Below, piece after piece: positions 27-24,900 of a stretch of 64,000 nt of DNA. Position numbers and translations under genes: made by a program. The DNA lies in contig OY725506.1 in assembly GCA_963281255.1 (NCBI GenBank), positions 477,001 through 541,000 of the forward strand, written 5' to 3'. The DNA comes from Aphrocallistes beatrix (lineage: Eukaryota; Porifera; Hexactinellida; Sceptrulophora; Aphrocallistidae). Below the pieces are notes generated by a model, which had not been told where the DNA came from, did not search any database, and saw only the letters and a program-made list of their open reading frames with translations. Each line of letters begins with the position of its first letter. The stretch's first letter is position 1.

Positions 27-1231
27 CTGGTTCTAGAGTGTTAGCGCTGGAAGATCCTGTCTCAGAGGAAGTGGACTGTTTACTGCTAGGTCTTTCTGAT
101 TCGTTGAATGTTTCCGAACAGCTGCTTTTCTGTCGTTTTGCTGGGTCGGGCTTCCCTTCCTAAACACAAACAATTCTCAGATTATAACAACAACAACAAC
201 AACAACAACAATGTTGTTACAACAAACATACCTTTTCAATGAACTGATTTAAATCGAGGTAGAAGGGAAAAGTCATTCTAGATTTAAAGATAGTTATGAA
301 GTTATTTAAGAGAGAGTTCAAGTAGAACTCTATTTCAGGAATGGAGTAGGGACCTTACTTGTCGTTCAGTTTAATTCTGTGCATTGTTGTGTAATCGAAA
401 TCAAAGCGTTTGAGTTGAAGCGTGAGTAAGTAAGGAAATTTCGTAAACTTTAATCCCTAAACAACAACAACTTTGAAAATAAACAGAAATAAAGAAAATA
501 ATATTCCTAAAAAAGTTGAAAAATACAAAAGAACATCAAACGAGACACTGACTTAAATCAAAAGATTAACATCAAAGTTCATCTTCCATCAGTAGAAAAT
601 CATGATTAGAGAGAATAATGAGAATTCCAGGTTGAAAGGAATAATTATCAAAATGAAAGCTTCATCATTATACATTTATATTTGTTTCAGGTCATATTGC
701 GACAGAATAAGATCAGAGAACCTTTCAAAGTGATTAGTATAGAATAATTACGAGGTTTCCTACCATACAGCTAAGACGCGTCAAATTGAATGTGAATTAT
801 GTGAATGAGTTTTTGATAATTATAAACCTAGTATTCCGTATCAATACTTGTTTACTTCATTAGAAATACAATATGTATGATCCTGAAATTCTCATGAATC
901 TTACGAAGTTTAATAATCCAATTTGTTCAGGACATAGATAATTGAAAATATCATAAATATACAGAATAATGAAAATACGTACTCAAGAAAATATGAATAT
1001 AAAGTAAATATTTGCGATACTTCACACTTCTTGTTTATAAGATTTAGCTTCCATACTTTCAGGGAATTCAGTAGTGTGAGAGTTGGAATCACCTTTCTTA
1101 CTCGTAACAGTGATGGAGCAGAGGTGGGAAGGATATGAAAGTTGTTTCTTGGATTTCTGTTGTGTGATTTGCAAAGAATAAACCGGCGGCTTCAAGGAGG
1201 GATAATAACGAGTGTCTCTGTTCCTAGATCG

Positions 1232-1289
<58 letters not shown>

Positions 1290-4200
1290 CTACTTCTCCT
1301 AGGTTGTGCTGGTAAGAATTGGTAACAGAAACAAGCCAGAAATCCCATTAAGATTGAAGTTAAAATTTTCCTTCTGTCATCCATATTGTAGCAGATAAGC
1401 ATAATGATGACACAGAGGAACAAGAGAATTGCCGTAGTGATGAAACACGTGAAAAAAACTTGAAGAAAAATAGGCAGGATAGAGGTATCAAAATAATTTG
1501 CACATGAAAATGAGAACTCGTCTAGGATGTCCCCACAATTCGGAGAGGTTGGATGGATGGTTGGAGCTGATAAGACCAAGTCAAGCCAACAAGCAAAGAA
1601 GATTAAAACTCTCATTGAAATGCGATTGATTCAATTATTATATTACAAACTGAGTTATTGTCTTATATAGAGCCGGTGTACACCAATTACTATTGTTATG
1701 ACTGACTAGTTAGAACCACACAGATCATCCATCATGTTACAGCGTATAGAAAGCATAATGCAAAACAATGAGACGAAGCTAGTACAGAATCACTACAAAA
1801 TCACTACACTGAAATTTGAGATAATTATCAGCTGATACGGATATTCAAATGAACATCTGAGTTAAATTTTTGTCACTTTCAAGCTATTAGTTAATCCGTG
1901 GATTATATAATTATTATATAATTACAGTAGAACTCGGTTAGTACGTACTAATTTCTCTGAACCAAAATTCATTTATTATATAGATTCCTATGTAATATCA
2001 ACTCGGTTAGTACGTACTTACGGATAGTACGTACTTTTTTCCGCTTCCCGGAGGGGTACGTACTAACCGAGTTCTACTGTATTTATAATAATTATATAAT
2101 AATTATATAATAATTATATAATAATCATATAATTATTATATAATTATTATATAATAATAGCTTCCAACTGGTGACATGGGGTTTTCAGGGGTGTAGATTT
2201 CGAATATCATATTTTCGAGTAAATTTGATAATTAATTTGTTTAATTTTGTTTACTTTTGTTTACATTAGATACATAAAGTAAACAAATACAAAAAGAGGC
2301 TAGAGACTGGCTTTCAACGGTTGACATAGGATTTTCAGGGGTGTAGATTTCGAATATCATATTTTCGAAGCTATATGAGAAATTATTTATTAAATTTTGT
2401 TTACAATATTTATATAAAGTAACCAAACTCCCAAAATAAGCGATTGATAAACTCCAGGCGCCCGCAGAGAGACTCTGCGGACACAAAGTGTCTGCAAGCC
2501 GCGGAGCGCAAGCAAGCGAAGCGTGCTTGTGAAAGTAAAATATGTAGTTTATATTAACCATATACTAAATTTGGACTCATGCACTCTTCCCTCCTATGCT
2601 GGGTAATCCACTGTTTCAGGGGGATTACATATGAGCCTACTGACTATAAGTGTGCTACCCTCTGACTTTCTGTATAATTCAGGTTAAAACTATTGGTTTA
2701 GTTAGATACAAAACAAAGTAGAGGAATGTGATACTAACCTTGTGTGCATCACACTTCTTTCCACAATTCTCGCACTGATACTAAATATAGAACAAACAGT
2801 AAAACACAAGAGTTTGAGTGGAAAAGAAAAGAAGTGGGAATTGAACCTGATTTTCCTCGTCCAATGTTTCTGGTTCTATAAACGCTTCAAGTGCTTCTTC
2901 CTACCAAAAAACGAAAAAATAAATAACTAAAGCCAACATAGATAAGACAGTAAAGGATCTAATTATTAATTTCTCAAGAGAGTAAATACAGAGTTCGATA
3001 AATTCCTTTACACTGTATATAATGATTAGATTATACCAGTGGTTCCATGGACCCCTTAATGGTCCACAGAAGATATCAGGGGGTCCACACAATATAGGAA
3101 TAATTGCAATAGGGAGTCTACAGTCAAAAAAGGTTGAAAATAGTTGTTTTTAGGAAATACAATTGTCCTTGCTTATTCTTGGTCTATTCTACACAACTCA
3201 CGCACCACAGACGAATAAGCAACGTTAGAGCCAAACGGTCTGATGACCAATGGGATATCTAGGAATGTGTCGTGTCTAGCAGACTCTTGTCTACATTCCA
3301 AGCACTTCACATAGTCCTTCATCTCCCCTTGGTAGAGGTGGTTGATGAGACAAGCCTAGAGAGGTGAACTAGCAGTTATAGAATGCACTAGGAAATAAAT
3401 GAATACTGTGTGAATGAAGAGCTTCAGTATAAATGATTGATAGCTAAGTTGACTAATTCATTGAAAGATGATGAAGAATTATGAATTATTCAAAATCTCA
3501 AACATTAGTGCAGATTTTATGCCCAAAAGTGGTTAAAAGGTTGCTCATGTTATATACCTCTAACATTGCTCAGGCCCTAAGCGAAATATCAAATATTTTT
3601 TCATTATTTTAATTTCAAATTTTGAGTAATTCATTGATAATTCATGAATTAGTCAACTTAGATTGATAGTATAGTTAACAGTTATATTTAACAGGGATAT
3701 CAAAATGGAGGGAATATTTGTTGGTTATTGACTTGAATACCACTGACCTGTTCCGTATTCTTAAAGTTAATCTCGAGAGCATCGAACATAACTCTACACA
3801 ACTCCTGTACATCATGTTGCTGCCAAGCTAGTAAACAAACAAAGTAAACATGAATGTTGTTGTTGTTGTTGTGTTTGAAAAGATCATTCATATTTGTTGA
3901 CATACTTGTTTAGATATGAATAATATGAACTATACCTTCATTTGTGTCCCACCCAAAGCTCCTTGTAATGTCAGTCGTTTCGACAGCTCTTTTATCAGAA
4001 GTCTAGCAAAGTATATTATCCAATCAAATGTCTCATACTTAAGTATAAATGTATTGGAACCTCCGTTCCATTATGATAACACAATTAGTGTGCTCAGCGA
4101 TGAAGCATTCCATTGCACCTTACCTGTAACTGTATAAACAACCTTTGCAGTTGGTATGGAATACATCTCTCCTTCCCATTCTCATTCTTGTTAAACCTCC

Positions 4201-7200
4201 ACCTAATAAACACAAACACAAACACAAACAAACAAACAAACGAATGAATCTCTAGAAAGGAGATGTTTATCTACCTGTAGAGAGCATTCCTGAACTCAGG
4301 AGACATGTACAGAGTCTGTAGGAGACTGTTGAGATAGCAAGTCATGGCTTGGTTCACGAGACCAACGAAACCTAAGAGAGATAGAAATAAGTTGAATCAA
4401 AGTACAGGTGACTCCGCTTAATCGGGACACTTTGTCCAGGGATATTTTGCCCGATTAAGCGGAGTTCCCAATTTACCGATGAAATTTATTATTAGCTTCT
4501 ATGTATGGGAACCATTCCGTTCCTGGAGACTTGTCTTAGTTAAGCGGAGTTGATTGTATATCAAATAATGAAGAAAAAACTGAAAATATAGGGAGGTGGC
4601 ATTTTTATCAATGAGATTTCTTCAAATTTGTCAGTCATTTGAGATACGTTATTATAAATTAAATTTTGATCGAAATAGAAAACGGATTTAGTGAATAGAA
4701 TTTTCCTTGCAAGAGCTAGAATAGTTTCTGCCGTCAAGTTTGCTAGTTTAATAAACTAGATCAGAGAGAGAGTCAGCGGATGTGTTCCTACCTGTCTCTG
4801 ACTGCTGGAGCTGATAGGAGTACCAGACAGTCCCTGGGGTGTAGGAGGGACGCATCCCGTCTGATGCAGGACTGTTCGTACTCCAGTTCTTGTTCCAAGT
4901 CACGTTAGTCAGCTGAACATTCTTCTGCTCATCATCCTGTTGGGGAGAAATTATCATTGGGGACCAATCAATTTGATTAACAAAATTATAACATTCCTTT
5001 GTACCAATATCGTAGTCAGGTTAGGATAAATGACAGAGATAACTCACATCTGATACAACTTGGGGCTGTCTGTCGTTCTTATCTCGAATGCAAATAACTT
5101 CTCTCTTCGTTTTAAATCCGAAATCGTAGAGAGAGGTCTTGTTGTCTATGTCTAGTTCCACCTCGTTGTCTTTCACTGAGCTGTCCTAGATAGTTACACA
5201 ACAACATAACAACAAATACAAACAAATATATATACATATACACAAGTAAACAAACTGGAATAATAAATATTATACAGTAATATTTTAGAAAATTTATTTA
5301 TTTCGTTTAAGTAGCTAATTTTAGTGGTTAAAACACAAATTTACATAAAATAAACAATTCCGAGATATAAATAACAACATTTGGATTGTAAACAAGTAAA
5401 GTTAACTAATTCAATTCGTGAAATCAATCTTAGATATCACGTTACACTCTCTAAAGACATTTTAAATACCACCCAACCCTCTTGTATATAAATGCCACAA
5501 AATATTACGTCACAAACTCATCTAGCAATCTAAGTGCATAACTAGAGTATCTAAGGTACATGCAGGTAAAACAGTTAGTTAGAACATTATGGTAACACAG
5601 TTAGTTAGAACATGATGGTAAAACAGTTAGTTAGAACATGGTGGTGACACAGTTAGTTAGAACATGGTGGTAACACAGTTAGTTAGAACATGATGGTATC
5701 ACAGTTAGTAGCTTATATCCATCGGATCAGAGTCCAATGGATTGACAGTGATTACAAAGTGGTCATAAGCTATTTTCTGGTCATCACCCACACATCCAGC
5801 GTACTTGTACTCGCTCCTTGCTTCGATCTCGAACCTCACCGCTTCCGAATGAAGAGGTTTGCACTCAAACACAGCTGTGCAGTTATATAGGCCTATTCCA
5901 CAGATAGTGTTGCTCTTGATGGAGTGTCCGCATTCAGGACAGCGGAGTTTGTGGATTTCTGAGTAGAGAAAGCATTCGTTATTCTCCTTTTTATAGAAAC
6001 CTTTCGAGTCGATGACGAATTCGTTGTAAGCCTTGCACCGAGGAGACGAACACTTCCCCATGAAGTTAAGACCGTCATCCACCGTTCTCCACGAAACCCC
6101 TCCAACCACCAGCTCCTTAACTCGGAAATTCTCCTTCTTTGTCATGTCCGCAAACCTAAAAATACCCATGTGCCCCCCTCTAATACGTGGCACCATATGG
6201 ATAGTGGCGTCCCTCTCGATCTTATAGTCGGACAAGGTAGTCGGGGAATCGTTTTCAGAGGTGCTCAAGTTGTGACTCCCGTAAATCAGGCGAAAAAACT
6301 CTGAACCGACCAAGGTTCGATGCGAGATTATCTCCATTAACTCGTTTACGGTCACAGAATCAAACTCTGTGAGGTTAACAGCCAAGTTGCGACCGTCTGG
6401 CTGCCTAACGAAGATTTGCACGGAGTTGCTTGTCATAGTTCAGTTCGAGGTAAAGTTTAGTTGCAGTGTTATATGGCAAAAGTTGAGATTTATATATATG
6501 CATAGATGTGCATACAGAAATATATTTTTAACTGTTTGAAAGATGGTAACATTATTCAGCAGAAAATCTTACCCCGTGGACAATTAGAAATTCTCCTCAA
6601 ATGCAAAACTTAAATTCTTGAAAAAGGAGAGAAAACCCTTTTTAAAAATTAGGTACTTTTTGTATAAAAACAAAATACAAAATTGAATCTTAGAAAAGTT
6701 CAAAATATAAAAATTGTTTCGTGTAAACAAATGAGAAAGTCATTTAGGAAAGAAGATAGTGCACAAATGATTCAAGAAGAATTCAGACACAACCAAGAGA
6801 ACTGTAAAATAATATTCACCACACCAACAATAATGAGCAAATGGAACGTAACGTCTAACAGAAGTGCAAAGGAAATATACGAATTTAATTGTTTGCACTT
6901 CATTGCATCACAGTACAGTTATTACACACTGAAGACTGATGCATGTGTCTATCACTGTCACGCACTGTGTTGGAATTGTAGATATTTAAACGAATCTGTG
7001 TTTAAGTTTAAACAACAAGTAAACGGGTTCAATAGGAACTATACGTATATAGAAGCTGATTTTTGTAGAAAGCTTGAATGGAAATATTTAATGAAACATT
7101 AACACCTCAGTATAAACATTTTAACATTCTAAGTTTACATCTCAAGTTGCACAATCGCACATATTGCCTTATTTTATCTACGGAGAATTAAAAATTAAAC

Positions 7201-10200
7201 TCGAAAACAAAACATAAATCCTTGAAAAATAGATTTTTTCAAAAATCGTTACCTTTTCATAAAAATGAAATACATAATTGGAACTATGATAAGTCTAAAA
7301 TTGTTGTATACTCAACCTACACGTGTAGTTCACGTTTCGCATTAACGTCACTTAGGTTTCAAGGGGAGCTATAGTTATTACTACAAGAAGACTCCTCAGA
7401 GAATTGTAATATAATATTACACGGACAGTTCACGAGGATCGCAATATATCCCCATTAGGGTTGGCTAATTAACCCACGCCCCGGGTTAAACCCGGGCTGG
7501 GCAAAACCCCCTTTTGTGGGTTAAACTGGGTTAAAGTGGGTTTTATTATAATGTATGTACTTGTAAATCTTAGCGATATCAATTGTTTGGATTGAAAATC
7601 CCTATACTGCAAGTATTATATTGAGATTCCGTAATGATGTTTTTAATAAGACCTCTGATGTACAAACATGGAATTTCTTAAAATGTACAACAATCTAATG
7701 TGCTTTCAAGAAACAAGGATACTACTGTTATATATGTAGAGCAGTTTGTCTTTTTTACCTACTCTAATCATAGCGGTTACTGCATGTATAATGGCTAGTT
7801 TTGTGGTGACCCAGTGATCCTGTTCAAAGCTATTTTTCTAAAAGTAGAAGGTCTAATGTGAGGCGCATAAATGCTTCTATCGAGCGGATATTTTCTAACT
7901 TTAGTTTAGTCCAGAACAAACTTCGAAATAGATTAGACTTAGAGAACCAGCAAAATTGATAACCTGTTATCGGGAATAGAGAGGTTCAGTGGAGTTTGAC
8001 TGGCGATTTGCTTTTCATTTGTTTTAGATTTTCAATGTAATAGATTTGATATGCAACTCTTAATAAATACGCTTATATAATTAATTATATCGTTGAATTT
8101 GAAAACAAAGACAGTGACTGGGAAAATCTGTTTCTGGAGAATAAAACCTGTTTTAACCCGGGTTAAATTCCAACCCTGATCCCCATTATAGGTAAAGTTG
8201 AAAAATATTTGTTGGGATAACTAATAATAAACACAAACATCACATCTAAACAAATATCTAGGTTCTAGAACTAAGCAAACTAACTAAACTTATCAATCAA
8301 TACAGAAGAACAAAATAACTTCTTGCAGCTATTTATAGTTTTTTAACGATTAGCATAATATACTCATATTTAATCTTATCCTTCTTACCTATGCAACCGG
8401 CGTATTGGTACTTATCCTTAGACACAATGTCGTAAGAAATCTCGTCTTTATCTTCTTGCTTGCATGTCACAGTCAGCTTACATTGATAAATCCCAACACC
8501 AATCACTTCTTTCTTGTTAAGTTTGACATTACACATGGGACATTCTAGCTTGCTAATCTCGAAATTGAGCATGCAATGACCACCAGTGGATTTATAGAAT
8601 CCTTTATTCACTAGTACAGTGTCGTTCAAAGCATCGCACCCAACTTGCTTACAAGTTCCAGTAAAACTCAGGCCTAAGCTCACTGCTCTCCATTGCGGAC
8701 CGCATTCAAACTCGATAGGTTTGAATTTGTCTTCCGAGGTGACGTCAGCGAATCTCAGTGGATTAAAACATGGACCTCCTCCTCCAAGTAATCTTGAAAC
8801 TATCACAATATTTGATCCCCTTTTAATACCATAATAACACAGAGTATGTTCGCTTTCCAATTCTTTTGATCCAAATAATAATCTCAGTCTTTCCACTTCG
8901 ACACCAGTCCTGGCTTGAATTATAGACTTTAGTTCTGAAACTTTAAAATCTTTAAATTTGGATGATCTAATTGGTATAGTAAGATCTTTTCCTCCAAAAC
9001 CTGATATATATATATCTTCCATTATTGTAAACAAACGCAACCGTTAATCGATATCAAAATATATTCTAATAAACTTATCCAAAAAAACTGTAATAAATTA
9101 CAATTATCTCAGTTGATCGTGCTTATATACGTACAGAGTCATTGAACTAAAGAATAGCTGTAAGCACTAGATTCTAGAACAGATCATTATCTACAATCAA
9201 GACGAGATGATGCAATATTTCCAGATTATATAACTAATTAGTTTCATGATAGCAGTAAGTTCAATTCTATGAAGAACAGCAAACACAAACAAATAACAGG
9301 AAACATAAACAAACACACAAACAGCAGTAAGCATCATTTATAAACATCAAATCGAATAAACACTTAAAGTGTTGATCAACAGACTGATAGTGCAGCTCCA
9401 TTATAACACCACACCACCATTAATTGTATAGAATGTGTCCGTGTACCGTATGGCAGTGGTTGGGATTAGGGGTAAATTACTACGTTGAGGGTAATTTCAG
9501 GTTTTCTGGGGTAACTAGACTCGTCAGGAATAAAATAGTGTTAACGTAACTTTAAAATGAGTGTTGCTAGTTTCAAATTACCACAATTAATATTATAATA
9601 ATAGTAACAAGTGACACCATTATACTAGCTATTATTAGAATTAGATTCAGGTTTAGTCAGGTTGTCTTGTATATAAACAAACTGCTTGGTTTTCCGTGTT
9701 TATCATTTGAATGGGGCATTAGTAAAATCTCATTCCTTCTAGATAATCATTAGTTCAAATAAATAGTAATTATCGCAACATCACAGTCTAGTCAATCTCG
9801 TACATGCCATCCGTCCCGTTTTGTCGTGATGTCCCAACCTTGTTTGTTCATATATCCATGTATTCATTAAGCAGAAGTTTCTATTAATACTATTTGATTG
9901 GTGGAATATTAGGAACTGAGAATAGTGTTCTATTTCGAGGAGCTCAATAGTAAGATGTTAAGTATTGAAGGTTTGACTCATAATGATTTAGTTTAATACA
10001 TGTAAGGGTCCTATAGAATAAAAACAAACAAGAAAATACAAATATACAAATTTACAAGCATAAAAGTATTGGAGCTACGAGGATACAGAAAATAAGAATT
10101 AAGTATAAAGTTGTGTTCAAGATATAACAATCAAACTTGCTAACTAATGCCTAACAAATAGTGTAAAGAAAGAAGAGAGAAAATGAACTTAGGTTAGCTC

Positions 10201-13200
10201 TGTGGCACTAACAGTCTTACACTCCACTATTCTACTATTACTAGGTCCACGTCTTTTGAAGATAAGTCTTCCAGTGGCTTAACAATCAGTTTGATGTATT
10301 CATATTCAATCTTATCTTTCTCTTTATAGCATCCTGCATATTCCATCTTATCTCCTGCTACAATTTCGTAAGAGATCTTATCTTTTCCTTCCTGCTTACA
10401 CTGTACATTAAGTCTACATTTATAAATGCCAAGACCTGTTACGTTCTTCTTAGCGAGAAATGATTTACACATGGGACATTGTAATTCTGTTATCTCACTG
10501 TTGAGAAGGCACAAGCCATTATATGAGTCATAAAACTCTTTCATTACCCAGACATTGTTATTATAAGCTACGCAAGAAGGTTTCTTGCAGATTCCTACAA
10601 AATTTAACCCTCGAGTTATTATACGCCATTGCGGAGCATCTTTCGATAATTCCAAAGTTTTGAATTTATCTTTGGAAGTAATGTCAACAAATTTCAGCGG
10701 GAGAAGACCGGTACCTCCAGAAATCGCAAGCGTAAGCGTAATATTCGAATTATTTTGAATATCGTAATCCTTGAATGCCATACTCTTCCCATCTCGTACA
10801 TCGTATAACTCTCGACCATTATAGATCAACCTCTGCTCTCCTACATTAATAACAGATTTTTTCTGAATGATATTCTTAAGTTCTGAAATTTTGGTCCCTG
10901 AAAAAGTAGCTGATTGGAGTTTAATAGTATAAATGCTATCGCCAATCCCTTTTACAAATAAATTATTTAATTCAGATTCCATTTTACCAAACAATAGATT
11001 CACAAGAAATATCACAAAATTTGAGTGAGATACAATCAAATATATCTCTCTACATATATATCGTGTAAGTTATTCACAAATGCATATTGGTAACATGACC
11101 TGAAGATGACCATATATGTACATATTAAATAACAGTATTAAAACACGAGCCTTGGACGCTTCGCAGTTTACAATACGTGTGGATACTTTATACACATTGT
11201 TGAATTGTGCAGATAACTTCATCTATTTGCCATTAAGTATTCTATTAATAACTCATTCCTAAAATTAATGCAAGTCAATAAGCAAACCTTATGTAATATA
11301 TTTGTGTAATTAATCCTTTATAATTACAGTAATTTTTTGGGTTTAAACCCGGTACTCCTCGTCTTGTCTCTAGATTGCAATCGCACCATTTCAATTTCTG
11401 TGTCGATAGTATTTCTCGAGGATAAAATTATTACTTCCACTCAATTAAATTAGTCGATGATACAATTTAACATAATTGCCTAGGTATAGAAGTCAACTTT
11501 TATTATTTCGTCTACCTAAACACACTTAAACTTATTTGAAAATTTAATCGGTTTCAATTAATAAAGTGTTTGGATAATCAAGGTTGTACTATCCTTATTC
11601 CACTTATCCGGGAATAATTTCCCACTGTGTTGCTATAATGATGCTTGCAGGGTAAATACAGAAGACGTCTGAATACACACAGTGAACCCTCGCTTATCCG
11701 AACACAATGCTGAATGAAGCAGATCTTTGTTCATACAATATCGTTGTATTCATTAAGCAGAGGTTCTCATTAATACTAATTGATCGGAATATTAGATATT
11801 AAGAATAATATAAAATAGTGTTCACTATTTCGAGGTGTTCACTAACAAAGTATTGGAGGTTTGACTTTAGTTTGATTTAGTTTAATACATGTAAGGGTCC
11901 TATAGGTAAAAACACACAAGAAAATACAAAACTACAAAACTACAAATCCACAAGCGTACAAAAATAGGATCTACGAGGACACAGAAAATAAATGAGCTAA
12001 GAATTAAGAATGAAGTTTTAGGTCAAGATATAACAACCTCTATTATTAACTAAACTATAATCAAAAGGGAAAATAAACATACATTATGAAACGAAGTGTT
12101 ACTTTTGAGACAAGGTAGTACTATATGAACTTAGGTTAGTTGCGTGCGACTAGACTGCACTACACTAATCCAATTGTATTAGGTCCACGTCTTTTGAAGA
12201 CAAGTTTTCCAAAGGTTTGACAATCAGTTTGATGTATTCATATTCAATCTTATCTTCCTCTTTCAAACACCCTGCATACTCATACTCCATCTTATCTCCT
12301 GCTACAATTTCGTAAGAGATCTCATCTTTTCCTTCCTGCTTAGACTCTACCTGAACTCTACACTGATAAATGCCGATACCAAACACATTCTTCTTAGCGA
12401 GAGCTGATTCACACATGGGACATTTCAGTTTTGTGATCTCAATGTTGAGAATGCAGTAGCCATTTTCTGATTCATATAATCCTTTCATTACCCAGACATC
12501 ATTATTACAAGCTACACAGAAAGGGTTTTCGCAGATTCCCAAAAAATTTAACCCTGGAGTTATTATACGCCATTCCGGGGCATCTTCGGATAATTCCTTT
12601 GTTTTGAATTTATCTTTGGAAGTAATGTCAGCAAATTTCAGCGGTAGAAAACCACCTCCACGAAGTACAGAGGTCAGCGTAATAATTGAATCATTTTGAA
12701 TATTGTAATCCTTGAATGTCATATACTTACCATCTCGTACCTCATACAATTCTGGACCCCTGTAAATCAACCTCTGCTCTCCTACATTAATACCGGATTT
12801 TTTCTGAATGATATCCTTAAGCTCCAATATTTTGGTCGCCGAAAAATTAGCTGGTTGGAGTTTAATAGTATAATGCTTACCGTCAATTCCATTCACAAAT
12901 AAATTATTTAATTTAGCTTCCATTTGATCAAACAATATACGTGTATTCACAAATCACAGAAATATCACCGAATTCGAGTAAGCGAGATGCAACAAATATA
13001 TGCACCTACCGACATATGGGTTATTTAGAAACGCATAATGGCACATGCAAGTCATATATCTGCGTAATGCAACATAAAGTTATCATAAACCATCTTATTA
13101 TCTAATCTAAATCAGAGAGAAGTGACTTTTATCAAATATCAGAATGTTCTCTATGTTAATCAAGCAAGTTCATATAATAATAATAAATGAAGTTATATCT

Positions 13201-16200
13201 AACTATGAATACAAGCACTAATTAGACATTAACAGCACAATCTACATACATATATACGGTCAACATAAACAATGATAAGCTCAGCACCAGTCTAATCACA
13301 GTGGTTAGTTGCCAATTCAAGCCTTAATCAGCGCCACTGATTCAGTTGGTAAAGTTTAAACCGAACCATTTTTCAAAAGTGGTTCGGTTGGTTAGTTAAA
13401 AACCGCACCACTTCTAAAACCGTGGCATCAGTGCTGTTGATAAGAAGTCAGTACAGATATGACGAGAATAATTCTCACAGAGAGGTTATATTCACAAGTG
13501 TAGCTATTTTAAATGAATCAATTGCATAAACTTAATTAAAAGTAGTTTGCGTATTTTATTGATTGATGTTTACTCTACATTAATATCTCTAAACACGGTC
13601 TTATATATTGTTGTTATTTGAGATCGGTTACCTCATTATTTAGTTTCAACATCCTTGGACAATGGATATATTCCTTTAAGTACCCAGAAGTTCTGTGTAT
13701 TTTAAGATGAATGTTTTGAGTTATAAGGAATAAATTAAGCGTGTTTTCTCAGATTTTCGCAATAATTTAGCCTGAAAAGTGTTCACTGATAATTTCTGAT
13801 ATCATTGTACTCTGGCAGTTTTGGGATTGCTAGTGCAATAAAATTTCAAAAAAACTCGTCCTACATGTAATACTTTTTTTCTTGAGGATAATATAAGCCA
13901 ACCTCCAACCAAAGATAAAGAATAGCATTGCACACAAACAATGAGTATAGAATCCTAGCTCTAACTCAACTCTACAAAACTAAGCACTAACTAACTCAAT
14001 AAATGTACTAACCTATCTAGTACCTAACCTAACACAAAGGAGATTATTCCTTAGCTCAATCGTTCAAGATTTCATAACGGGTTAACAGTGAGCCGGATGT
14101 ACTTATAAGAAATCTTCTCATCATCACCAGAGCCACAGGCACACTTGAAATCGTCTCTTGATTCCACCTCAAAGTCGATTTTTTCTCTCCCAGTCGGGAG
14201 ACACTCAACCCTCAGTTTACAGTTGTAGTAGCCAAATCCATTCACTGCGTCCTCTTCGATTTTAATTGAGCACATGGGGCATTCGAGATTGTTCATCTCA
14301 TAACTGAAATCACATAGTCCCTTAGTTGGTTCAAAAAAACCTTTCTGCATCCATACGTTTTTTTTGCATGCCACACAACCTTCGTTCTTACAAACTCCCT
14401 CAAAATTCAAGCCTGGAACAACAAACCTCCAAGCGGGTGCGTATTTTGAAAATTTGATTGTTTTAAACTTATCTTCAGAAGTAATATCTGCACATTTGAC
14501 TAGCGCCATACCGGGAATTTTTAAAACACTGGTACCATCACCTCCTTCTAACCCAACCATTACCTCAATTGTGGAATGGTCTCCAATGCCATAATCTTTC
14601 AATGTCATTGATTTGCCATTACGCTCATCACACAAAAACGTTGCGAATTTTAAAATTTGTCTCTCAGAATCAATACCAGTTCTTTTCTCTATCAGTTGCC
14701 TAAGTTCGGAGATTAAAGCATCAGGTTTGATGAGAATCGTTTCAGTTTTTCCGCTCAAAGCATTCACAAACAAAGTATTAAATCCGCTCATTTGAAATAT
14801 AATATGAACTCAGATGAATTAATAACGAAAAACTTGTGTATCAGAAGAAGTCACACTTCATATATACTTGAACGTACATAGTTACTAGTTATATGAGCCT
14901 AATAAATCACGAGTGTCTAATGGTATTTTCTCGTCTTAATTTACACCATTTCCACAAAGATTGTGGATATACAAACTAAGGTATTTGCATATAATATAAT
15001 ACAGAGGTACTATATATAGTAGTAAATGGGTTTAACAAGAGGGCGATCAAGTATAAACATTACACAATAATTTGGGGCACAATTTTCGATACTTTACTAA
15101 GTTCATTTGTTAATAACCCACGGTCAAAGGTCTGTTGCATGAAAAAATGCCCCCCCCGTGAAAAAATGCCCCCACCATGGATATTCATGTAATATGGGGG
15201 GGGGCAAAATTTCATGGAGTTAGCGTGAAAAATTGCCCCCCCGTGAAAAAATGCCCCCCACCATGGATATTCTAAAGTATGCCAATGCTTATACAAAACA
15301 TTTTGAATGCTATTTGGCTTCTATTCGTTTACTAAAGCACTGTAAATCAACAAACTAGTCGTGTGAAGTAATAACAATGACTTTCATAAATGTATCGTAT
15401 ATAAATAGTATCAGCAATATTTAGTGTTAAACTCAAGAATATCCATGGTGGGGGGCATTTTTTCATGGGGGGGCAATTTTTCACGCTAACTCCATGAAAT
15501 TTTGCCCCCCCCATATTACATAAATATCCATGGTGGGGGCATTTTTTCACGGGGGGGGCATTTTTTCATGCAACAGGTCTCAACTTTGTAGTAGAACTGG
15601 AAAAGACCTAGCCGCAAGAGAAATTTTTAAAAGTAAAGGTGACTTAACACTTTGGTCTCGATTATTTCTTCCTTTTTGAGCAGAGATTGAGCGGAGTTCC
15701 CAATTAACCGATGGAATGTAGTATTAACTTCTATGTAAGGGAACAATACGGTACCTGGAGACTTGTCCCAATGAAGCGGAGTTGACTATACGTATGTACT
15801 AATCAAATCTTGTCAATGATCGCATAATGTATGAGATGGGAGATACAAAATCCGTTAATACATAGAGACATGTATAGTTGAGTTCTATGTATTTTAGTTT
15901 ATCAGAGAGAATGATTGTGAGAATGCTATTAATAGGTGGAATTCTCACACTTTCAAACCCACACTAACTAAGAAAATAATAAAATTTAAGCTCTTTATCA
16001 ATTATATTTTGCAGTTACTTTGGAGCAAAGTTGAAACAGATTGAACCGAATATCAGTATCCATGAATAGTTCCCTAACCGAATACGAATGCTGATACACT
16101 CGGGTATTTGATAAATCTTACAGAGGGGCTGAAGTCAGGGTATTATACAGCAATTTCAAACCCTAAATTTTAATAATGACTCCACTTAAAGGGTCTGTTT

Positions 16201-18573
16201 ATCGGGTCATTTTGGCAGGACCGGAATAGCTCTCACACAAAGAGGTTAATAAACAATATTTTTGGTTAACAGGGTTCTCCGCTTAATCGGGGCAAATGTC
16301 CTCTGACCGATGTGACCCTATTAAGCGGAGTCGACAGTATGCCTAAATCGATAATACCATTATAGTCATCCAATTATCTAGGAGTACGAGACGCTCCTTT
16401 AGGCGTATGATTTTAAGCCCGAAAGCGTTTAGGAGCGTTTTAGAATATTACACAATTTATCTTATATTACAATGTTATTTATCGATTTAGACGTATGAAA
16501 ATATATTTATTTTAGACCAGGAGCGATTATCTGGAGGGCTGTATAATACCCTGATTATAATAGAGGGTAAATTGAGTATTATTCTGGATTTTTACGCTCC
16601 TGGAGCGCGAGACGTTCCTTTAGGCGTAAGATTTTAATTCTCAAAGTGTTTGAGAATTAAAATCTTACGCCTAAAGGAACGTCTCGCGCTCCTAGACAAT
16701 ACCTCGAAATAATCTTTAATGTAAGACTGTCAATTGTTATATAACTGTATGCTGATCTATTTTACAGATACTGGCTGTATCTGATAGGTCAATTAGTTAG
16801 AAAAATATGTTGTCACCAAGTTTGAAACTTTGTACCGGATAAAGTATGCATGAATATTCCATCACCGAATACGAATACTGATAGTATTCAGTTCCCAACC
16901 GAACATCAAATGTTTGCAAAATAGTATTTGACCTAACCGAATATTGAACTACTCGGTTGCAACCTCGCTTTATACATTTATTTATAACTACAGTACACAC
17001 TCGATAGTCCGAACACTTAAAATACTATGTATATTATGATTCGCCTCTATGCTTTAAATAAACTTTATAATATTATACAGTCGACTCCGCTTAATAGGGT
17101 CACTATTTAATGGGGTCAACCGCTTAATCGGGCCACTTTTGGCAGGACCGGAATAGCTCTCACACATAGAAGCTAATACAAAATATTTTCGGTTAATAGG
17201 GTTCTCCGCCTAATCGGGGCAAAATGTCCTCTGACCAATGTGACCCTATTAAGCGGAGTCAACTGTATCCATCAATAAGATTGAGAAACCTCATTAAATA
17301 AGCAATCTTAGCGAAATAATATCCTTAACATTCTAACAATACAAATTTATTATAATTAATTCCCTATTGAATTAGTGTTATTTCACTAATCGGAACAAAT
17401 TCACTAATCCGAACGATTTTTCGATCATTGGAACAGAGCTGTTCGGATTAGTGAGGGAGTACTGTGTTAATAAAAATGTCAGTCAACAGACTGTTTGAGT
17501 CAAAACGCCTCGAAGCCATAAATAAATTTGTTCAAGATACTCCTCCCATCGTGTTATATGGACTTGAACATAAACCGAAGAGTATAGTGTAATAATCGTT
17601 ATATGCATTCCAACCGTCCTATTTAGTAGTTATGAATTATTAATGGGTATTTTTAGCCCGAATTATCAGGAAATCCTGAAAAAAACGCGGAAATTATTCT
17701 TAAAATCAGTTAAAACTCTCACTTATCTAAACGTCAAATTAACATTTACTAAATGTATTAGAAAAAGTTTTCTTAATAAATACCGAATAAACCAAGGATA
17801 ACAAAAGTGCAAATCAAACATTTAAATTATATTAAGTAAACCCAACCAATTAAACCAATACAGAATCGATGGAATAGTGTTATATTTATAACTTGTGTTG
17901 ACATAACATCAACATTTGTTTGTTGTCATAATATGATAGAGCACATCAATAATAATAAAATAGTGTTGTAAGAACTAACCTTTCTATCCCAGACCAGAGT
18001 GAATGTTCCCATCTTGTACTTGACCTGCTGTCCCACCAGTTTGTGTAGGTCGTTGATGGTATAGGAGACTGATAGGTTTATTATCTGCTTCTGCTGACTC
18101 TTGCAATCTGTTTCATCCTTCACCACAATCTGGCATGTAGTCTGATTTAGCTCACTCGATGTGTCTGCATGAGCGACAACTGGAAAATTTGAGCTTCCTA
18201 GGACAACAAGAGATAAAGAAAGGATGGATGGATGAATGGATGGATGGATGGATGGATGGATGGATGGATGAATGGATGGATGGATGGATGGATGGATGGA
18301 TGGATGGATGGATGGATGGATGGATGGATGGATGGATGGATGGATGGATGGATGGATGGATGGATGGATGGATGGATGGATGGATGGATGGATGGATGGA
18401 TGGATGGATGGATGGATGGATGGATGGATGGATGGATGGATGGATGGATGGACGGTTGGATGGATGGATGAAAAAGCCTTACCATCAGTAGAAGAGTGCT
18501 GTGTGTTATCAGGAGTTGAATTCTCCCCCGTAGGAGAAGAATTGGAATCTGCTAGATCGATTAGATCTGACAT
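27..18573 (-). CDS. USP47: USP47-like ubiquitin-specific protease, 5' part (14 exons, continues beyond left edge)
   Basis: Cysteine protease that removes ubiquitin from substrates. Exons in transcript order: 18573-18483, 18197-17980, 5185-5048, 4936-4792, 4371-4275, 4202-4124, 4002-3936, 3827-3748, 3355-3206, 2900-2847, 2780-2739, 456-359, 277-232, 159-27. All phases join, giving 479 codons plus one base. Seen: an N-terminal ubiquitin-like region ending [11 protein letters not shown] (human long isoform has NGTFDLVWGNG); the Cys box [20 protein letters not shown] in the exon at 4275-4371; [18 protein letters not shown] at 3748-3827; CLEC and CENCGKKC zinc-type Cys pairs; [10 protein letters not shown]-like [14 protein letters not shown] at 359-456. 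The His box and C-terminal Ubl domains lie outside the window. The intron 5186-17979 (12.8 kb) is exceptional and carries five nested genes. Family assignment is firm; the last exon's donor (GTTGTT) is weak, and without splicing there an in-frame TGA follows at once. Confidence 0.9.
1022..1615 (-). CDS. Small single-pass membrane protein with poly-Gln tract, nested in a USP47 intron
   Basis: A 197-residue uninterrupted frame inside the USP47 intron 457-2738, on the same strand. I do not recognise the family. Visible: a signal-peptide-like N terminus ([17 protein letters not shown]), a short outer segment with two Cys ([13 protein letters not shown]), a strongly hydrophobic segment around residues 48-76, then a basic cytosolic side with a run of about 18 Gln (CAA repeats, 1232-1286) and a Ser/Lys/Tyr-rich tail. 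This suggests a type I membrane protein with a disordered tail. A TATATAAG box lies about 45 bp upstream of the ATG (plus coordinates near 1657-1666), which supports a gene of its own rather than a chance frame. The Gln run is an uninterrupted trinucleotide repeat and so probably length-variable. Confidence 0.55.
1925..2079. mobile_element. Palindromic MITE, Tigger/pogo-like, in USP47 intron
   Basis: The ends are inverted copies of CAGTAGAACTCGGTTAGTAC flanked by TA on both sides. There is no coding capacity. The same family occurs at 44075-44228. The CAGTAGAACTCG... terminus and TA target duplication are typical of Tigger/pogo-derived MITEs. Confidence 0.75.
2090..2155. repeat. AT-only low-complexity tract
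   Basis: Alternating runs of TTATATAATAA type, made almost wholly of A and T, next to the MITE and before the tandem repeat. It is self-complementary and may be unstable. No function is visible. Confidence 0.8.
2167..2550 (-). repeat. Two-copy tandem repeat plus GC-rich dispersed repeat
   Basis: Two direct copies of a unit of about 150 bp, each holding GGGTGTAGATTTCGAATATC (2188 and 2338 areas), are followed by a GC-rich block (about 2455-2545) with AAGCAAGCGAAGCGTGCTTG. The GC-rich block recurs at 31660-31740, 43600-43680 and 61130-61215. It produces a spurious Ser/Ala/Arg-rich frame that is not a gene. Confidence 0.7.
3036..3147. mobile_element. hAT-type MITE fragment (AGTGGTTCC...GGTTGAAAA family)
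   Basis: Starts CAGTGGTTCCATGGACCCC and ends near AAAGGTTGAAAATAG, in the USP47 intron 2901-3205. It is the same family as 27630-27780 and 37193-37334; the last has a clean 8-bp target duplication. Confidence 0.6.
4405..4556. mobile_element. Tigger/pogo-like MITE (GACTCCGCTTAATCGGG family)
   Basis: Lies in the USP47 intron between the Cys-box exon and the preceding exon. The left end CAGGTGACTCCGCTTAATCG and the inverted right end carry flanking TA. Other copies: 15680-15793, 16177-16337, 17078-17265, 36636-36799, 45469-45628. Confidence 0.75.
5569..5708. repeat. Minisatellite, about 26-bp unit x 5
   Basis: Five copies of a unit centred on CAGTTAGTTAGAACATGRTG, with slight variation. The array runs into the 3' end of the first nested Ubl gene, and the stop codon of that gene lies in the last partial unit. 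Confidence 0.9.
5705..6436 (-). CDS. Ubiquitin-like domain / Cys-rich fusion protein, paralogue 1
   Basis: 243 residues, single exon. Residues 6-88 read as a ubiquitin fold ending MVPRIRGG, very like the LVLRLRGG end of ubiquitin. Residues 93-235 form a second domain shared with four neighbouring paralogues: [26 protein letters not shown]-x4-C (CSSPRC), [21 protein letters not shown]. The paired Cys suggest a zinc site. The layout recalls ubiquitin-ribosomal protein fusions, where a protease cuts after Gly-Gly, but the second domain is one I cannot name. The start is a true ATG with TATATAAA about 55 bp upstream (6489-6500). It sits in the 12.8 kb USP47 intron, same strand. Cleavage and function are inference. 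Confidence 0.75.
   Translation of the reverse strand: MTSNSVQIFVRQPDGRNLAVNLTEFDSVTVNELMEIISHRTLVGSEFFRLIYGSHNLSTSENDSPTTLSDYKIERDATIHMVPRIRGGHMGIFRFADMTKKENFRVKELVVGGVSWRTVDDGLNFMGKCSSPRCKAYNEFVIDSKGFYKKENNECFLYSEIHKLRCPECGHSIKSNTICGIGLYNCTAVFECKPLHSEAVRFEIEARSEYKYAGCVGDDQKIAYDHFVITVNPLDSDPMDISY
6437..7455. other. Intron stretch between Ubl paralogues 1 and 2
   Basis: Holds the paralogue 1 promoter (TATA near 6490), an unplaced frame at 6683-7102 (listed separately) and two diverged direct repeats of about 100 bp (about 6590-6690 and 7185-7290; TTGAAAAA...ATACAAAATTG type) flanking that frame. Nothing else recognised. Confidence 0.5.
6683..7102 (+). CDS. Unclassified 139-codon frame, doubtful
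   Basis: Uninterrupted frame on the strand opposite to its neighbours, about 250 bp upstream of Ubl paralogue 1. No family recognised. The product would be basic, with a C-x3-C-x3-C-x2-C cluster late on ([12 protein letters not shown]) and no signal peptide or membrane segment. The frame is flanked by two diverged direct repeats, so it may be cargo of an old repeat. In DNA this AT-rich a chance frame of this length is unlikely but not excluded. No splice or promoter evidence was found. Confidence 0.22.
   Translation: MNLRKVQNIKIVSCKQMRKSFRKEDSAQMIQEEFRHNQENCKIIFTTPTIMSKWNVTSNRSAKEIYEFNCLHFIASQYSYYTLKTDACVYHCHALCWNCRYLNESVFKFKQQVNGFNRNYTYIEADFCRKLEWKYLMKH
7456..8178 (+). mobile_element. hAT-type transposon remnant with 8-bp target duplication
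   Basis: Ends TAGGGTTGG and CCAACCCTG are inverted copies with one mismatch, flanked by the 8-bp direct repeat ATCCCCAT (7448-7455 and 8179-8186). Sub-terminal GGGTTAAACCCGGG motifs are also mirrored. Near 7855-7960, plus strand, translation gives [20 protein letters not shown], the hAT C-terminal dimerisation motif (A-S-x-E-R-x-F-S). The rest of the transposase is lost, so this is a deletion derivative. Confidence 0.85.
8333..9022 (-). CDS. Ubiquitin-like domain / Cys-rich fusion protein, paralogue 2
   Basis: 229 residues from the ATG at 9022; the frame is open further upstream but has only a TTG there. The Ubl fold ends VSRLLGG (about residues 75-81). The second domain has [26 protein letters not shown]-x4-C (CKQVGC), KGFY, CPMC, GVGIYQC and YQYAGC. 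A TATATAAG box lies about 100 bp upstream (near 9125). It belongs to the five-gene same-strand array inside the USP47 intron. The pattern of invariant Cys (C-x4-C, then C-x2-C about 45 residues on) suggests metal binding. Function unknown; possibly an unconventional ubiquitin-like modifier or antiviral/stress effector (inference). Confidence 0.75.
   Translation of the reverse strand: MEDIYISGFGGKDLTIPIRSSKFKDFKVSELKSIIQARTGVEVERLRLLFGSKELESEHTLCYYGIKRGSNIVIVSRLLGGGGPCFNPLRFADVTSEDKFKPIEFECGPQWRAVSLGLSFTGTCKQVGCDALNDTVLVNKGFYKSTGGHCMLNFEISKLECPMCNVKLNKKEVIGVGIYQCKLTVTCKQEDKDEISYDIVSKDKYQYAGCIGKKDKIKYEYIMLIVKKL
9041..10226. other. Intron stretch between Ubl paralogues 2 and 3
   Basis: Contains the TATA box of paralogue 2 and, at about 9850-10200, the 3' flank of paralogue 3, which is recognisably duplicated at 11760-12130 downstream of paralogue 4 (shared TTTAATACATGTAAGGGTCC). 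No gene seen. Confidence 0.6.
10227..10982 (-). CDS. Ubiquitin-like domain / Cys-rich fusion protein, paralogue 3
   Basis: 251 residues from the ATG at 10982 ([10 protein letters not shown]); 19 more codons are open upstream but begin with TTG. Paralogue 4 has the equivalent start [10 protein letters not shown]. Ubl fold, then LAISGG in place of the Arg-rich LRGG end, so if the Gly-Gly is a cleavage site its flank has drifted. Second domain: [30 protein letters not shown]-x4-C (CKKPSC), CPMC, GLGIYKC, MEYAGC, then a longer acidic tail ([11 protein letters not shown]) shared only with paralogue 4. Closest relative of paralogue 4 in protein and 3' flank, so this pair is the youngest duplication of the array. 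Confidence 0.75.
   Translation of the reverse strand: MESELNNLFVKGIGDSIYTIKLQSATFSGTKISELKNIIQKKSVINVGEQRLIYNGRELYDVRDGKSMAFKDYDIQNNSNITLTLAISGGTGLLPLKFVDITSKDKFKTLELSKDAPQWRIITRGLNFVGICKKPSCVAYNNNVWVMKEFYDSYNGLCLLNSEITELQCPMCKSFLAKKNVTGLGIYKCRLNVQCKQEGKDKISYEIVAGDKMEYAGCYKEKDKIEYEYIKLIVKPLEDLSSKDVDLVIVE
11040..12164. other. Intron stretch between Ubl paralogues 3 and 4
   Basis: 11690-11760 shows one end of a Tigger-like MITE (CCCTCGCTTATCCGAACAC). About 11760-12130 is the duplicated 3' flank shared with paralogue 3. The rest is AT-rich and unrecognised. Confidence 0.5.
12165..12923 (-). CDS. Ubiquitin-like domain / Cys-rich fusion protein, paralogue 4
   Basis: 252 residues from the ATG at 12923; the nine codons upstream start with GTG. 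The Ubl fold ends TSVLRGGG, close to the ubiquitin LRGG. Second domain: [30 protein letters not shown]-x4-C (CENPFC), CPMC, GIGIYQC, YEYAGC, and the acidic tail [11 protein letters not shown]. The Cys in the VQC position of paralogue 3 is replaced here by Ser (VESKQEG), so that Cys is not part of an essential metal site, while C-x4-C and C-x2-C are kept. Same strand and array as the other four. Confidence 0.75.
   Translation of the reverse strand: MEAKLNNLFVNGIDGKHYTIKLQPANFSATKILELKDIIQKKSGINVGEQRLIYRGPELYEVRDGKYMTFKDYNIQNDSIITLTSVLRGGGFLPLKFADITSKDKFKTKELSEDAPEWRIITPGLNFLGICENPFCVACNNDVWVMKGLYESENGYCILNIEITKLKCPMCESALAKKNVFGIGIYQCRVQVESKQEGKDEISYEIVAGDKMEYEYAGCLKEEDKIEYEYIKLIVKPLENLSSKDVDLIQLD
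12924..14071. other. Intron stretch between Ubl paralogues 4 and 5
   Basis: Carries a possible short MITE at about 13325-13440 (CCGAACCA/TGGTTCGG and ...CCACTGAT/ATCAGTG pairs). Otherwise AT-rich DNA with no gene seen. Confidence 0.4.
14072..14791 (-). CDS. Ubiquitin-like domain / Cys-rich fusion protein, paralogue 5
   Basis: 239 residues, true ATG start ([15 protein letters not shown]), first of the array in transcription order. Ubl fold ending MVGLEGG, so the Gly-Gly is kept but not the preceding Arg. A linker of about 15 residues longer than in the others leads into [30 protein letters not shown]-x4-C (CKNEGC), KGFF, CPMC, GFGYYNC, and [13 protein letters not shown] in place of YxYAGC. 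It is the most diverged of the set. A TATATA-rich stretch lies near 14859. Probably the same biochemical class as its neighbours; the substrate or partner is unknown. Confidence 0.75.
   Translation of the reverse strand: MSGFNTLFVNALSGKTETILIKPDALISELRQLIEKRTGIDSERQILKFATFLCDERNGKSMTLKDYGIGDHSTIEVMVGLEGGDGTSVLKIPGMALVKCADITSEDKFKTIKFSKYAPAWRFVVPGLNFEGVCKNEGCVACKKNVWMQKGFFEPTKGLCDFSYEMNNLECPMCSIKIEEDAVNGFGYYNCKLRVECLPTGREKIDFEVESRDDFKCACGSGDDEKISYKYIRLTVNPL
15130..15577. repeat. Long inverted repeat (foldback) with G/C homopolymers
   Basis: Outer ends CTGTTGCATGAAAAAATG and its reverse complement CATTTTTTCATGCAACAG. The arms of about 140 bp contain CCACCATGGATATTC and GGCAAAATTTCATGGAG with runs of 7-9 C or G, separated by about 160 bp of unique DNA. 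Transcribed as part of the USP47 intron it would fold into a long hairpin. Confidence 0.85.
15680..15793. mobile_element. Tigger/pogo-like MITE, partial copy
   Basis: Contains GAGCGGAGTTCCCAATTAAC and ends AAGCGGAGTTGACTATA. Same family as 4405-4556; the left end is degraded. Confidence 0.6.
16177..16337. mobile_element. Tigger/pogo-like MITE
   Basis: GACTCCACTTAAAGGG at the left and AAGCGGAGTCGACAG then TA at the right; inner TTCTCCGCTTAATCGGGGC as in 17078-17265 and 45469-45628. Confidence 0.65.
16602..16692. repeat. Near-perfect palindrome, 44-bp arms with 3-bp spacer
   Basis: Arm 16602-16645 is the exact reverse complement of 16649-16692 around the spacer GTG. The arm includes GAGCGCGAGACGTTCC and TAGGCGTAAGATTTTAATTC. 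A diverged single arm lies at 16380-16440, and a related flank (TATCGATTTA...CGTATGAAAAT) recurs at 48840-48910, so this is part of a dispersed element. Confidence 0.9.
17078..17265. mobile_element. Tigger/pogo-like MITE
   Basis: Ends CAGTCGACTCCGCTTAATAG and its inverted copy (GGAGTCAACTG), flanked by TA. The best-preserved member of the family in the window. Confidence 0.8.
18222..18466. repeat. Tetranucleotide microsatellite (GGAT)n, about 60 units
   Basis: Almost pure GGAT on the plus strand with a few GAAT/GGAC variants, lying wholly in the first USP47 intron (18198-18482). It generates long spurious frames on both strands (WMDG and SIHP repeats) that are not proteins. Confidence 0.95.
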
Positions 18574-21983: not shown

Positions 21984-24900
21984 TTAGTCTTCCAATTCAA
22001 TCTGTATAGAACATTGTTCAGCTGACTGTTCGAGGAGTTCCAGCTGTTTCGGATCAGGTTTAGAAAGTTCAGATTTGGAAAGTTGGAGTTTTCTGATGTG
22101 TGGAGGTGTTAGGATTAGGTACTTGATCGGGAGACACGAGTCAGAACTGAGTTGGCAATCTTCAATCGCTAAACACCTAATGGCTGGATGGTAGTTTAGA
22201 CTGTGACATAGTACCAGCATTCCAGAGTCTCGTAATGGAGTGTCATAGAGTTTCAAGTAAACGAGTGACTTCATTTCTACTAAAGCTCTGTACCAGCAGC
22301 TCATATCATCAGGTGTGAAATCGCAATTGAACAGTTGTAACGATATCAAATAGGAACAGGTTGAAAACAAATCTAAGCAACTACTCCAGCTGTTGAACCT
22401 AATTCTGTTTAAATACCTTAAGCTGATCTCTCTCAGTGAAGTGGAATTCTCAGAAATTATTCGTATCAGAGAGTCTCGGTAGGATGGATTAGGAGATGAC
22501 GAGGAAAGAGAGAGTAGACAGAGGTATGTGATGGAACTGAGTCTAAGCAAGTATTGCAATGCTTCGTAGCTATCTCGTTTCGTCCACCAATAAAACTCTT
22601 TCAGCGAGGAGAGCGCTGATAGGTCAGATGTCACTGGGAGGAAATCGAGGAAGTCCATAATGTACAGTCCATTGAGTGGATTGTCTGTTATTAATTCATG
22701 AATAACCGACCAATCAGAATCTTTCGACTTGGGACTATAGTACAGATCGTGCAATGACGTAAATTGATTGGACAAGTTCAGTAGCATTGAATGGTTCATT
22801 GGAGATCGATCTAACTTCAAACTTCCAGTGAATTGGTTGTGTGAAGGGAACAGCAGCTGAGAATCGTTACAAACTGTCAGGTCGGAATCTGTGAAGTCAA
22901 TGCAAATTCTGGTGTCAGTAGGTAGAGTGGCAGAGGAGAGCAGTTCAGTGTAGGAAAGGATGGTGTCGAAGTCTTTCCTAACAAACTCTAGTGCTAGATA
23001 ATCGAGATGGCACGAGGAAAGTTGAGTAAGGAGAAAATGGAACTGTCCAGCGTTAACAAAATTGGAATCAATATATAGGACACGAAAGTCATGAACATAT
23101 TCCAATGACTGTGTGAAACAATGCCATTCATTCGGAGAGACAGTGGACCTGAAATATAGGTAGAGAGGGTGATGGAACTTCTCTTTGAAATGTGCGAAAT
23201 GTTTAGGAATGGAATCTGAACAGTTTATTTCGCTAATAACGGTGCATAATAGGAGGAATGACTGAGTAAATTCCTTCCAACCTGAAATGTCAATTATTTC
23301 TGACTCAAAGCACAGCTTATGAATCACGGGCACATCAGAGAATGACATCGGTTTAGGGAGTGTGTGTCTGCAGAGAATAGGCGTCAAGCGACCGGCGTTA
23401 TGTTTCAAGATGCCACTCACAAACCTAATCACCATCTTGTACATGGACAGGTATTGGACAGAGGAAGTTATGTAGCGGAAAATAAAACATTGGTTCGTCC
23501 AGGAGTTGGCACAAATTGAATAGGCGGCCATGAACTCTTGTATTGTGAGGTGTTGAAAAGTCCACACCTTCACACGATTACCGTAACGACCCATTTTCAT
23601 ATGTGCCTGCATCAGACCGAGACGCTCGCTGTTCACTTTCGTGTCTCCGATCTTTAATAGAATGCTTTTATCGGAGTTGAGATCTCGATCAAAAATGCCC
23701 TTGTTTGCTTCCTTCCCGATGGCACGAATACATTTCTTGATTCCTGGGTGGAATTTGGAGAAATCACAGACTTTGCTGTGCTCCTTTAGGCCCATACGGG
23801 ATAACTGGCGCCTAATCATGTACACAATCAGCTGGGTGTAAATATGGGAAAGCGTGAAAGTCAGGATAGACTCGGACTCGTTGAATAGAGCGGTGAACAA
23901 GCTCGCATTCACTGGGATCAGAGAAAGCTGTTCGATTTCTTCATGCCGATACAACATTTCGTTAACGTCGTTCAACTTGGGAACGGTTTCAATGCGCTTT
24001 TCGAAATACAGGTCTCGGTTTTGTGGAGAGAAACCGAGAACCTGGAAATGTGCGTCCACACGGAATTGGGACTTCTCCTGAAGTTCGGACCACGCGTAAG
24101 GTCGGCTGGTTACGAGGACAGTGCTCAGCGGGAGGATGCGTCGCTTAAGCAAACAGTTCAATAGAGTCTCGTCGAATGGCACATCCCTTACAAACTCGTC
24201 GGCTCCGTCGAGGATAATCAGAAGTCCCTCTCCGTCCGATTTCACCAGCTGCTCAGAGAGGGGTTCGCTCCACTTCGCACCTGAAAACATGCTCAGTGAC
24301 AGCCAACACACGATGAAGTCGCTATCAACGATGTTCCCCGCTTCGTGTCTTGCCTCCTCGAGTTTGTGCCATTCAGGACTCCGGCACGGGATGGAGATAA
24401 CGTACCGGAAGTTAGTCAGTGTGCTGGTGCCGTACATGTACGCGAAATGCTTACAGAGAAAACTCTTGCCGCTTCCTGGACTGCCAATCAGACACCAGAG
24501 TTCATGACGGGAGGAGTCAAAAGTGGTCACTATCGAATCAAAGTCCACCACCTCGACCGATTTCTGGGCTACCTGACTGTGGATATTTCGGAGGAATTCA
24601 ATCTCTTCACAGCCGCTCTCTGCCCCTACTCTCTTCTCGGGACTCTCCACCTTGATCACGGTCAGGGGAATGTAGACGGATTCTATGGGGACGGGATCTT
24701 GATCGAGGATAACACTCACGTCCTTATTCTGAGTTCGGATGAACTCTCTCAAGCTCAACTGCCACACTACTAGCTCTGCCTTGTCATCACGGTCTATTTC
24801 TTCCAGGATTTGCTGGCGAAATTTCCCGCTACTCAAATTTTGGAATGTTGCTATATAACTGCGGACCTGGTTTGCTAGATCGTTCCGTTTCACGATTTCG

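Follow-up and report, generated by a model that had tools for sequence, protein, structure and literature searches.

The 64,000-nucleotide stretch of the Aphrocallistes beatrix genome analysed here (the window) carries five genes on its minus strand, each coding for a ubiquitin-like domain (Ubl) that ends in Gly-Gly and continues into a Cys-rich domain. The reading that we consider probable is a local tandem array of cleavable Ubl-Gly-Gly/Cys-rich precursor genes inside an intron of USP47, a bystander deubiquitinase gene. The Ubl-GG-Cys family, rather than its nesting, seems to be the real find; it appears to be little described, and its two parts seem to evolve separately. In the proposed mechanism each gene would encode a Ubl ending in Gly-Gly, fused head-to-tail with a probably zinc-ribbon-like Cys-rich domain. 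A host deubiquitinase or Ubl protease would cut behind the Gly-Gly, freeing the Ubl and the Cys-rich domain (payload), and the latter would then do gene-specific work. The array would have expanded by DNA-level tandem duplication within the intron, with USP47 as a bystander. We infer cleavage, zinc binding, action of the payload in free form and neutral nesting.

The host gene lies on the minus strand of the window. Its 14 exons, from 18573 to 27, give a single 479-codon open frame when spliced; this model starts exon 1 at its ATG and uses a guessed donor, close to the window edge, for the last exon. AG acceptors are found at exons 2 to 14. The exon at 17980..18197, which is preceded by an exon at 18573-18483, ends in VWDRK with a complete codon and is followed by the donor GTTAGT. 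It is in frame with the exon at 5048..5185 (acceptor ATCTAG, donor GTGAGT), after which comes the exon at 4936-4792. The intron between them (5186..17979, minus strand, 12,794 bp) sits between complete codons, and in this gene model the exons on both sides of the array share one frame. An earlier note on this DNA had placed USP47 exons at these two positions with a 12.8 kb intron between them, and the in-frame splice model bears this out. Two separate host genes were rejected because a single frame runs through all 14 exons. Eleven of the 13 introns in view measure 66 to 420 bp, one 2,282 bp and one 12,794 bp, in agreement with the earlier description of the other introns as mostly under 0.5 kb and at most 2.3 kb long. 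The joined host protein finds USP47 as its top PDB match (E 2.8e-104), with USP7 second, and matches the Pfam family PF00443 (UCH) with an E value of 2.6e-43. It contains QAMTCYLNS, which surrounds the residue taken to be the catalytic Cys. With its UCH domain, its best PDB match and its in-frame N-terminal exons, the host resembles an ordinary USP47 orthologue save for the long intron; its later exons lie beyond the window. A second close USP47 copy was rejected, as the genome search found none and the top-scoring match elsewhere was 41% identical. The 285-bp USP47 intron holds a long run of a 4-base repeat (window positions approximately 18222-18470) that reads as Ile-His-Pro-Ser repeats. 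A further nested frame (1025..1615, minus strand, 197 aa) lies inside the 2,282-bp intron. By eye it has a signal-peptide-like start and membrane stretches, and the genome search gave no paralogue of it.

The five nested genes are all single-exon, open and on the minus strand, as the earlier note had described them. In the order of transcription they are located at 14072..14791 (Ubl ending LEGG, 239 aa), 12165..12923 (LRGG, 252 aa), 10227..10982 (ISGG, 251 aa, the tandem partner of the preceding gene), 8333..9022 (LLGG, 229 aa) and 5705..6436 (IRGG, 243 aa). The note had also claimed a ubiquitin fold with a terminal Gly-Gly. The ubiquitin family PF00240 is matched in 5/5, above the cut-off in four; the 5705 gene scores 22.6 bits against a cut-off of 25.4. 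The Ubl part of a predicted model of a nested protein has a pLDDT of 70 to 93 per 10-residue block. Alignment of the five proteins gives 40 invariant residues, including the Gly-Gly and six Cys. The residue after the Gly-Gly varies (D, G, T, G, H), and the linker behind it differs in length. The closest pair, 10227/12165, has a dN/dS of 0.40; the remaining nine have a nearly saturated pS (0.69-0.88) and a pN of 0.33-0.50. The nested genes look like constrained protein genes, since the frames are open and pN is lower than pS. A reading of the five as silent, functionless duplicates is the least probable of those weighed here: all five are open, amino acid changes are fewer than synonymous ones, and neither the six Cys nor the Gly-Gly varies.

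All 17 rows chosen for the Cys-rich domain share an invariant C-x4-C pair, a CPxC motif and one further Cys. In a wider set of 31 rows, from which one further frame missed by the cutting motif was left out, the first Cys pair is missing from the 4217/4218 rows on contig C12 and displaced in one C4 row. The earlier note could not assign this domain, and it still has no convincing relative in Pfam or the PDB. No Pfam family at E values up to 1 matched more than one of the 17 payload members (best E 0.0072). The 17-sequence payload profile gave 18 PDB matches at E values up to 5 (best E 0.063), mostly over a short stretch around CPxC. A profile search and structure prediction had been proposed for this domain; the former yielded no convincing relative and the latter gave models too poor to judge a fold (mean pLDDT 54.8 for the whole protein and 39.5 for the Cys domain). 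The domain is probably zinc-ribbon-like in its Cys pattern, a reading that rests on Cys spacing because the predicted models are poor. Pattern searches of viral contigs (453 and 1 matches) and of prokaryote contigs (91 matches) gave none that was confirmed, which says nothing about eukaryotes. Some fungi and protists presumably have unannotated proteins in which ubiquitin units precede a comparable G-C-x4-C ... CPxC domain. In a literature search in which subscription journals were thinly covered, no paper was recognised as describing a Ubl-GG-Cys family.

Two window payloads were used as queries against the assembly (100.5 Mb, 28 contigs) and gave 46 and 40 matches at E values up to 0.01, window genes included. 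The domain has nine main places, on contigs C20 (the window), C3, C4, C12, C14, C15, C2, C10 and C18; a weak C7 match with stops was left out of this count. Four architectures were found. Ubl-GG-Cys was read in 14 frames, and the Cys domain stands alone in C3 and in three C4 genes. It follows a different N-terminal stretch in C4, C14 and C12, and it forms arrays in long frames at C2:733375-745099 (up to 1,294 aa), C18:41274-45086 and C10:4851828-4853550 (496 and 624 aa). The array frames include ones of 1,272, 1,294, 807, 1,271, 624 and 496 aa, and the 1,271-aa frame on C18 has ten domain copies by motif. No Ubl was found in the parts of the C2, C18 and C10 array frames that were read. The C18 array frame is 62% G+C, compared with 38-41% in its flanks; the C2 and C10 stretches are 42% and 41% G+C. 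One C4 frame of 399 aa consists of a Cys protein, a Ubl tail with ISGG and a second Cys domain.

The Gly-Gly is conserved well beyond the window. It is found in all 14 full Ubl-Cys frames read genome-wide, the window's included. In a set of nine Ubls, in which C4 and C14 are represented once each, pairs are 11 to 83% identical, and a single Leu and the two Gly are the only residues that never vary across the 81 ungapped columns. Their identity as Ubls is independent of the Gly-Gly because PF00240 matches 9/9 at an E value of 9.3e-5 or better (seven above the cut-off, with the 5705 gene and the C12 Ubl just under it). Many Ubl-domain proteins are not processed. The fusion might thus never be cut, the Ubl serving as a permanent docking domain and the Gly-Gly as a flexible hinge, as the variable length of the linker behind it would allow. 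A hinge, however, would need no fixed Gly pair in nine Ubls that share one other invariant column, and in C4 and C14 both a break in DNA identity and the starts of standalone genes fall at the Gly-Gly position. We regard a permanent fusion as a doubtful alternative. The retention of the Gly-Gly, the identity break and the standalone starts together point to cleavable precursors like FUBI-eS30.

The identity break was found in two sister clusters, C4:6065107-6072993 (four genes) and C14:3696542-3701916 (three genes), whose Ubl-Gly-Gly cassettes are homogenised. The DNA from the ATG to the Gly-Gly is 96-100% identical within C4 and within C14. For the C4 pair 6065/6071, 240 of 249 bases are identical over this stretch, compared with 20 of 54 at 7-60 bases behind the Gly-Gly and 11 of 50 before the ATG. 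At 7-30 bases behind the Gly-Gly, 2 to 11 of 24 bases are identical in eight of the nine pairs within clusters; only C4 6065/6066, a recent pair, departs from this (24/24 there and 25/30 further on). These base comparisons are ungapped and linker lengths differ, so part of the fall is misalignment. Gapped alignment before the ATG gave a few short shared pieces. Codon-aligned pS values, which are free of the misalignment, are 0.015-0.046 (C4) and 0.030-0.089 (C14) for the Ubl within clusters and 0.249-0.826 (C4) and 0.627-0.758 (C14) for the payload, which is near saturation in eight of the nine pairs. Between C4 and C14, pS is 0.150-0.228 for the Ubl vs 0.564-0.904 for the payload. It was concluded that the Ubl-Gly-Gly stretch evolves separately in the two sister clusters. 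Except for 6065/6066, the payloads are about as distant within as between clusters while the Ubls are cluster-specific, which is the usual mark of gene conversion; in C4 and C14 the conversion looks as if it were confined to the leader. With the C4 cassette as a DNA query, the seven known copies and no others were found.

The three C4 genes without a Ubl begin with ATG-GCT at the position of the second Gly. The standalone starts read M-A-(C/S)-G-Q-S-T-G, and a Ubl relative reads G-G-A-S-R-Q-T-T-G there. Aligned in this way, the payload cut from a fusion would share its N-terminal Ala with a standalone protein trimmed of its Met. It is conceivable that the C4 genes share one leader by splicing: each of the three standalone frames has its own ATG, but two of them are preceded by TAGG, a possible acceptor. 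A tentative and more far-reaching reading, which we hold to be possible though not the likely one, is that in this sponge lineage the Ubl-Gly-Gly cassette is a detachable leader, copied or converted among genes as a unit that ends at the cleavage site, while the zinc-type payloads diversify and also occur leaderless or as ten-domain proteins. The window array shows no homogenisation of this kind. Nine of its pairs have pS values of 0.61-0.98 for the Ubl and 0.72-0.84 for the payload, and the tenth has 0.30 and 0.29, respectively; in all ten, the pN of the Ubl exceeds that of the payload. The argument for separate modules therefore comes from the sister clusters and reaches the window genes by homology only.

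The earlier note had further suggested that USP47 could be linked to the processing of the nested proteins or regulated with them. USP-family enzymes are able to cut linear Ubl fusions (PMC8354635), USP47 cleaves di-ubiquitins (PMC10516900), and the array is situated in the USP47 gene. That such enzymes cut behind Gly-Gly is sound in principle, as reported for USP36 on FUBI-eS30 (PMC8354635); nothing favours USP47 among the USPs. In an exon-by-exon UCH search, no match enclosed any of the other eight places of the domain, and sponges commonly have nested genes (PMC10282587). The nearest UCH match is approximately 26 kb away for C10 and approximately 180 kb for C2, and for the others it is farther or none is listed on the contig; the genome has at least 61 UCH matches, counted exon by exon. 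For three of these eight, the open frames in the flanks (5 kb on each side of C14, 3 kb on each side of C12 and C15) were inspected by eye and no gene was recognised on both sides, a reading that could miss a spliced host with long introns. Nothing but position speaks for the functional link: one of nine domain places is in a USP gene, and nesting is ordinary. We consider it improbable that USP47 is a dedicated processing enzyme of the nested proteins or co-regulated with them. Two further clusters were noted in these genome searches. Approximately 30 kb at C15:555014-584647 is full of diverged polyubiquitin-like frames (67 of 150 scored ubiquitin matches), and the 37 kb at C17:3630818-3668145 holds a tandem cluster of USP-type genes, with 13 large UCH matches plus two fragmentary ones.

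For Aphrocallistes vastus, 2,432 nested genes (12.4%) are reported (PMC10282587). The table of the same paper gives 3,358 for Amphimedon, 83 for Oopsacas and 0 for Ephydatia, and low counts in some genomes are attributed there to the annotation method. Chance nesting is a sufficient explanation of the position of the array because 12.4% of the genes are nested in a glass sponge (PMC10282587). The paper also describes non-syntenic A. vastus genes as often single-exon and in tandem, for example the AIG1 family, like the array found here, and compact genes with nested tandem families of single-exon genes, as in the present genome, fit its account. The word "ubiquitin" does not occur in its main text, and the Ubl-GG-Cys family is undescribed there under that word.

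With USP47 taken as a bystander, the array itself shows how it may have grown. Self-blastn showed a tandemly repeated unit within 9843..13041, with one copy at 9843-11090 and another at 11726-13041. These units, which carry the 10227 and 12165 genes, are 76% identical across 1.34 kb, non-coding flanks included, and this identity indicates tandem duplication at the DNA level. The start-to-start steps of the array are 2,628, 1,894, 1,938 and 1,907 bp. The 2.6-kb step, between the 8333 and 5705 genes, contains a dispersed repeat of approximately 0.7 kb (7454..8167) with at least 39 other genomic copies of approximately 0.6-0.7 kb and 84-90% identity, a lower bound from scoring 40 of 274 candidates. 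When 32 domain rows were placed in a tree, a branch separated the five window genes from the rest (75/77, 72% of 200 bootstrap trees), which gives their grouping modest support. The array accounts for most, not all, of the length of the intron, because 3.7 kb lies outside it, of which approximately 1.2 kb is covered by internal repeats in self-comparison; inverted and direct repeats are found upstream of the array within the intron (15132..17276). It is plausible that the long intron has grown around the array.

Further along the window, two closely similar NACHT proteins are encoded on the minus strand approximately 10 kb apart (21987-25361 and 32267-35656), with a transposase-like gene in two frames, named by eye, between them (26258-27364). 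Two open frames on the plus strand (52976-55054 and 57826-60240) have RING-like and B-box matches and are TRIM-like. On contig C28, comparison of COX1 with a mammalian COX1 placed 11 of 12 TGA codons at Trp columns. Of 36 ATA codons, 17 were at Ile and two at Met; the 12 AGA codons were at Ser (five), Gly (three), Ala (three) and Asn (one), with none at Arg; and four of five AAA codons were at Lys. We take this codon set to fit glass sponges.

The closest known systems are the ribosomal fusions Ub-eS31 (S27a), Ub-eL40 and FUBI-eS30, the last of which USP36 cleaves at the diglycine (PMC8354635). The window genes likewise have an N-terminal Ubl, a Gly-Gly and a small payload joined head-to-tail, and the full-length window-protein profile aligns across the junction into S27a. 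Homology of the payload to S27a was rejected, as the match arises with the full-length profile and is gone with the payload alone. In contrast to the ribosomal fusions, the payload profile by itself finds no ribosomal protein (no ribosomal chain is among its 18 PDB matches at E values up to 5), and the payload is multi-copy and diverging and also occurs alone, in arrays and behind other N-terminal stretches. We regard the family as a variant form of the Ubl-Gly-Gly fusion precursors, one whose payload could not be assigned.

These results point to a conserved Cys-rich domain with no convincing Pfam or PDB match, present in a multi-gene family with four architectures. The identity break at the Gly-Gly in the sister clusters is a natural experiment on the divergence of modifier and payload. 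If the cassette is indeed a detachable leader, the cell would release a single constant modifier along with many variable payloads. Such a pairing of constant and variable parts could be of use in defence, and the array in USP47 would then represent an older branch in which homogenisation has ended. The family offers a way into the question of whether animals make cleavable Ubl precursors besides the ribosomal ones.
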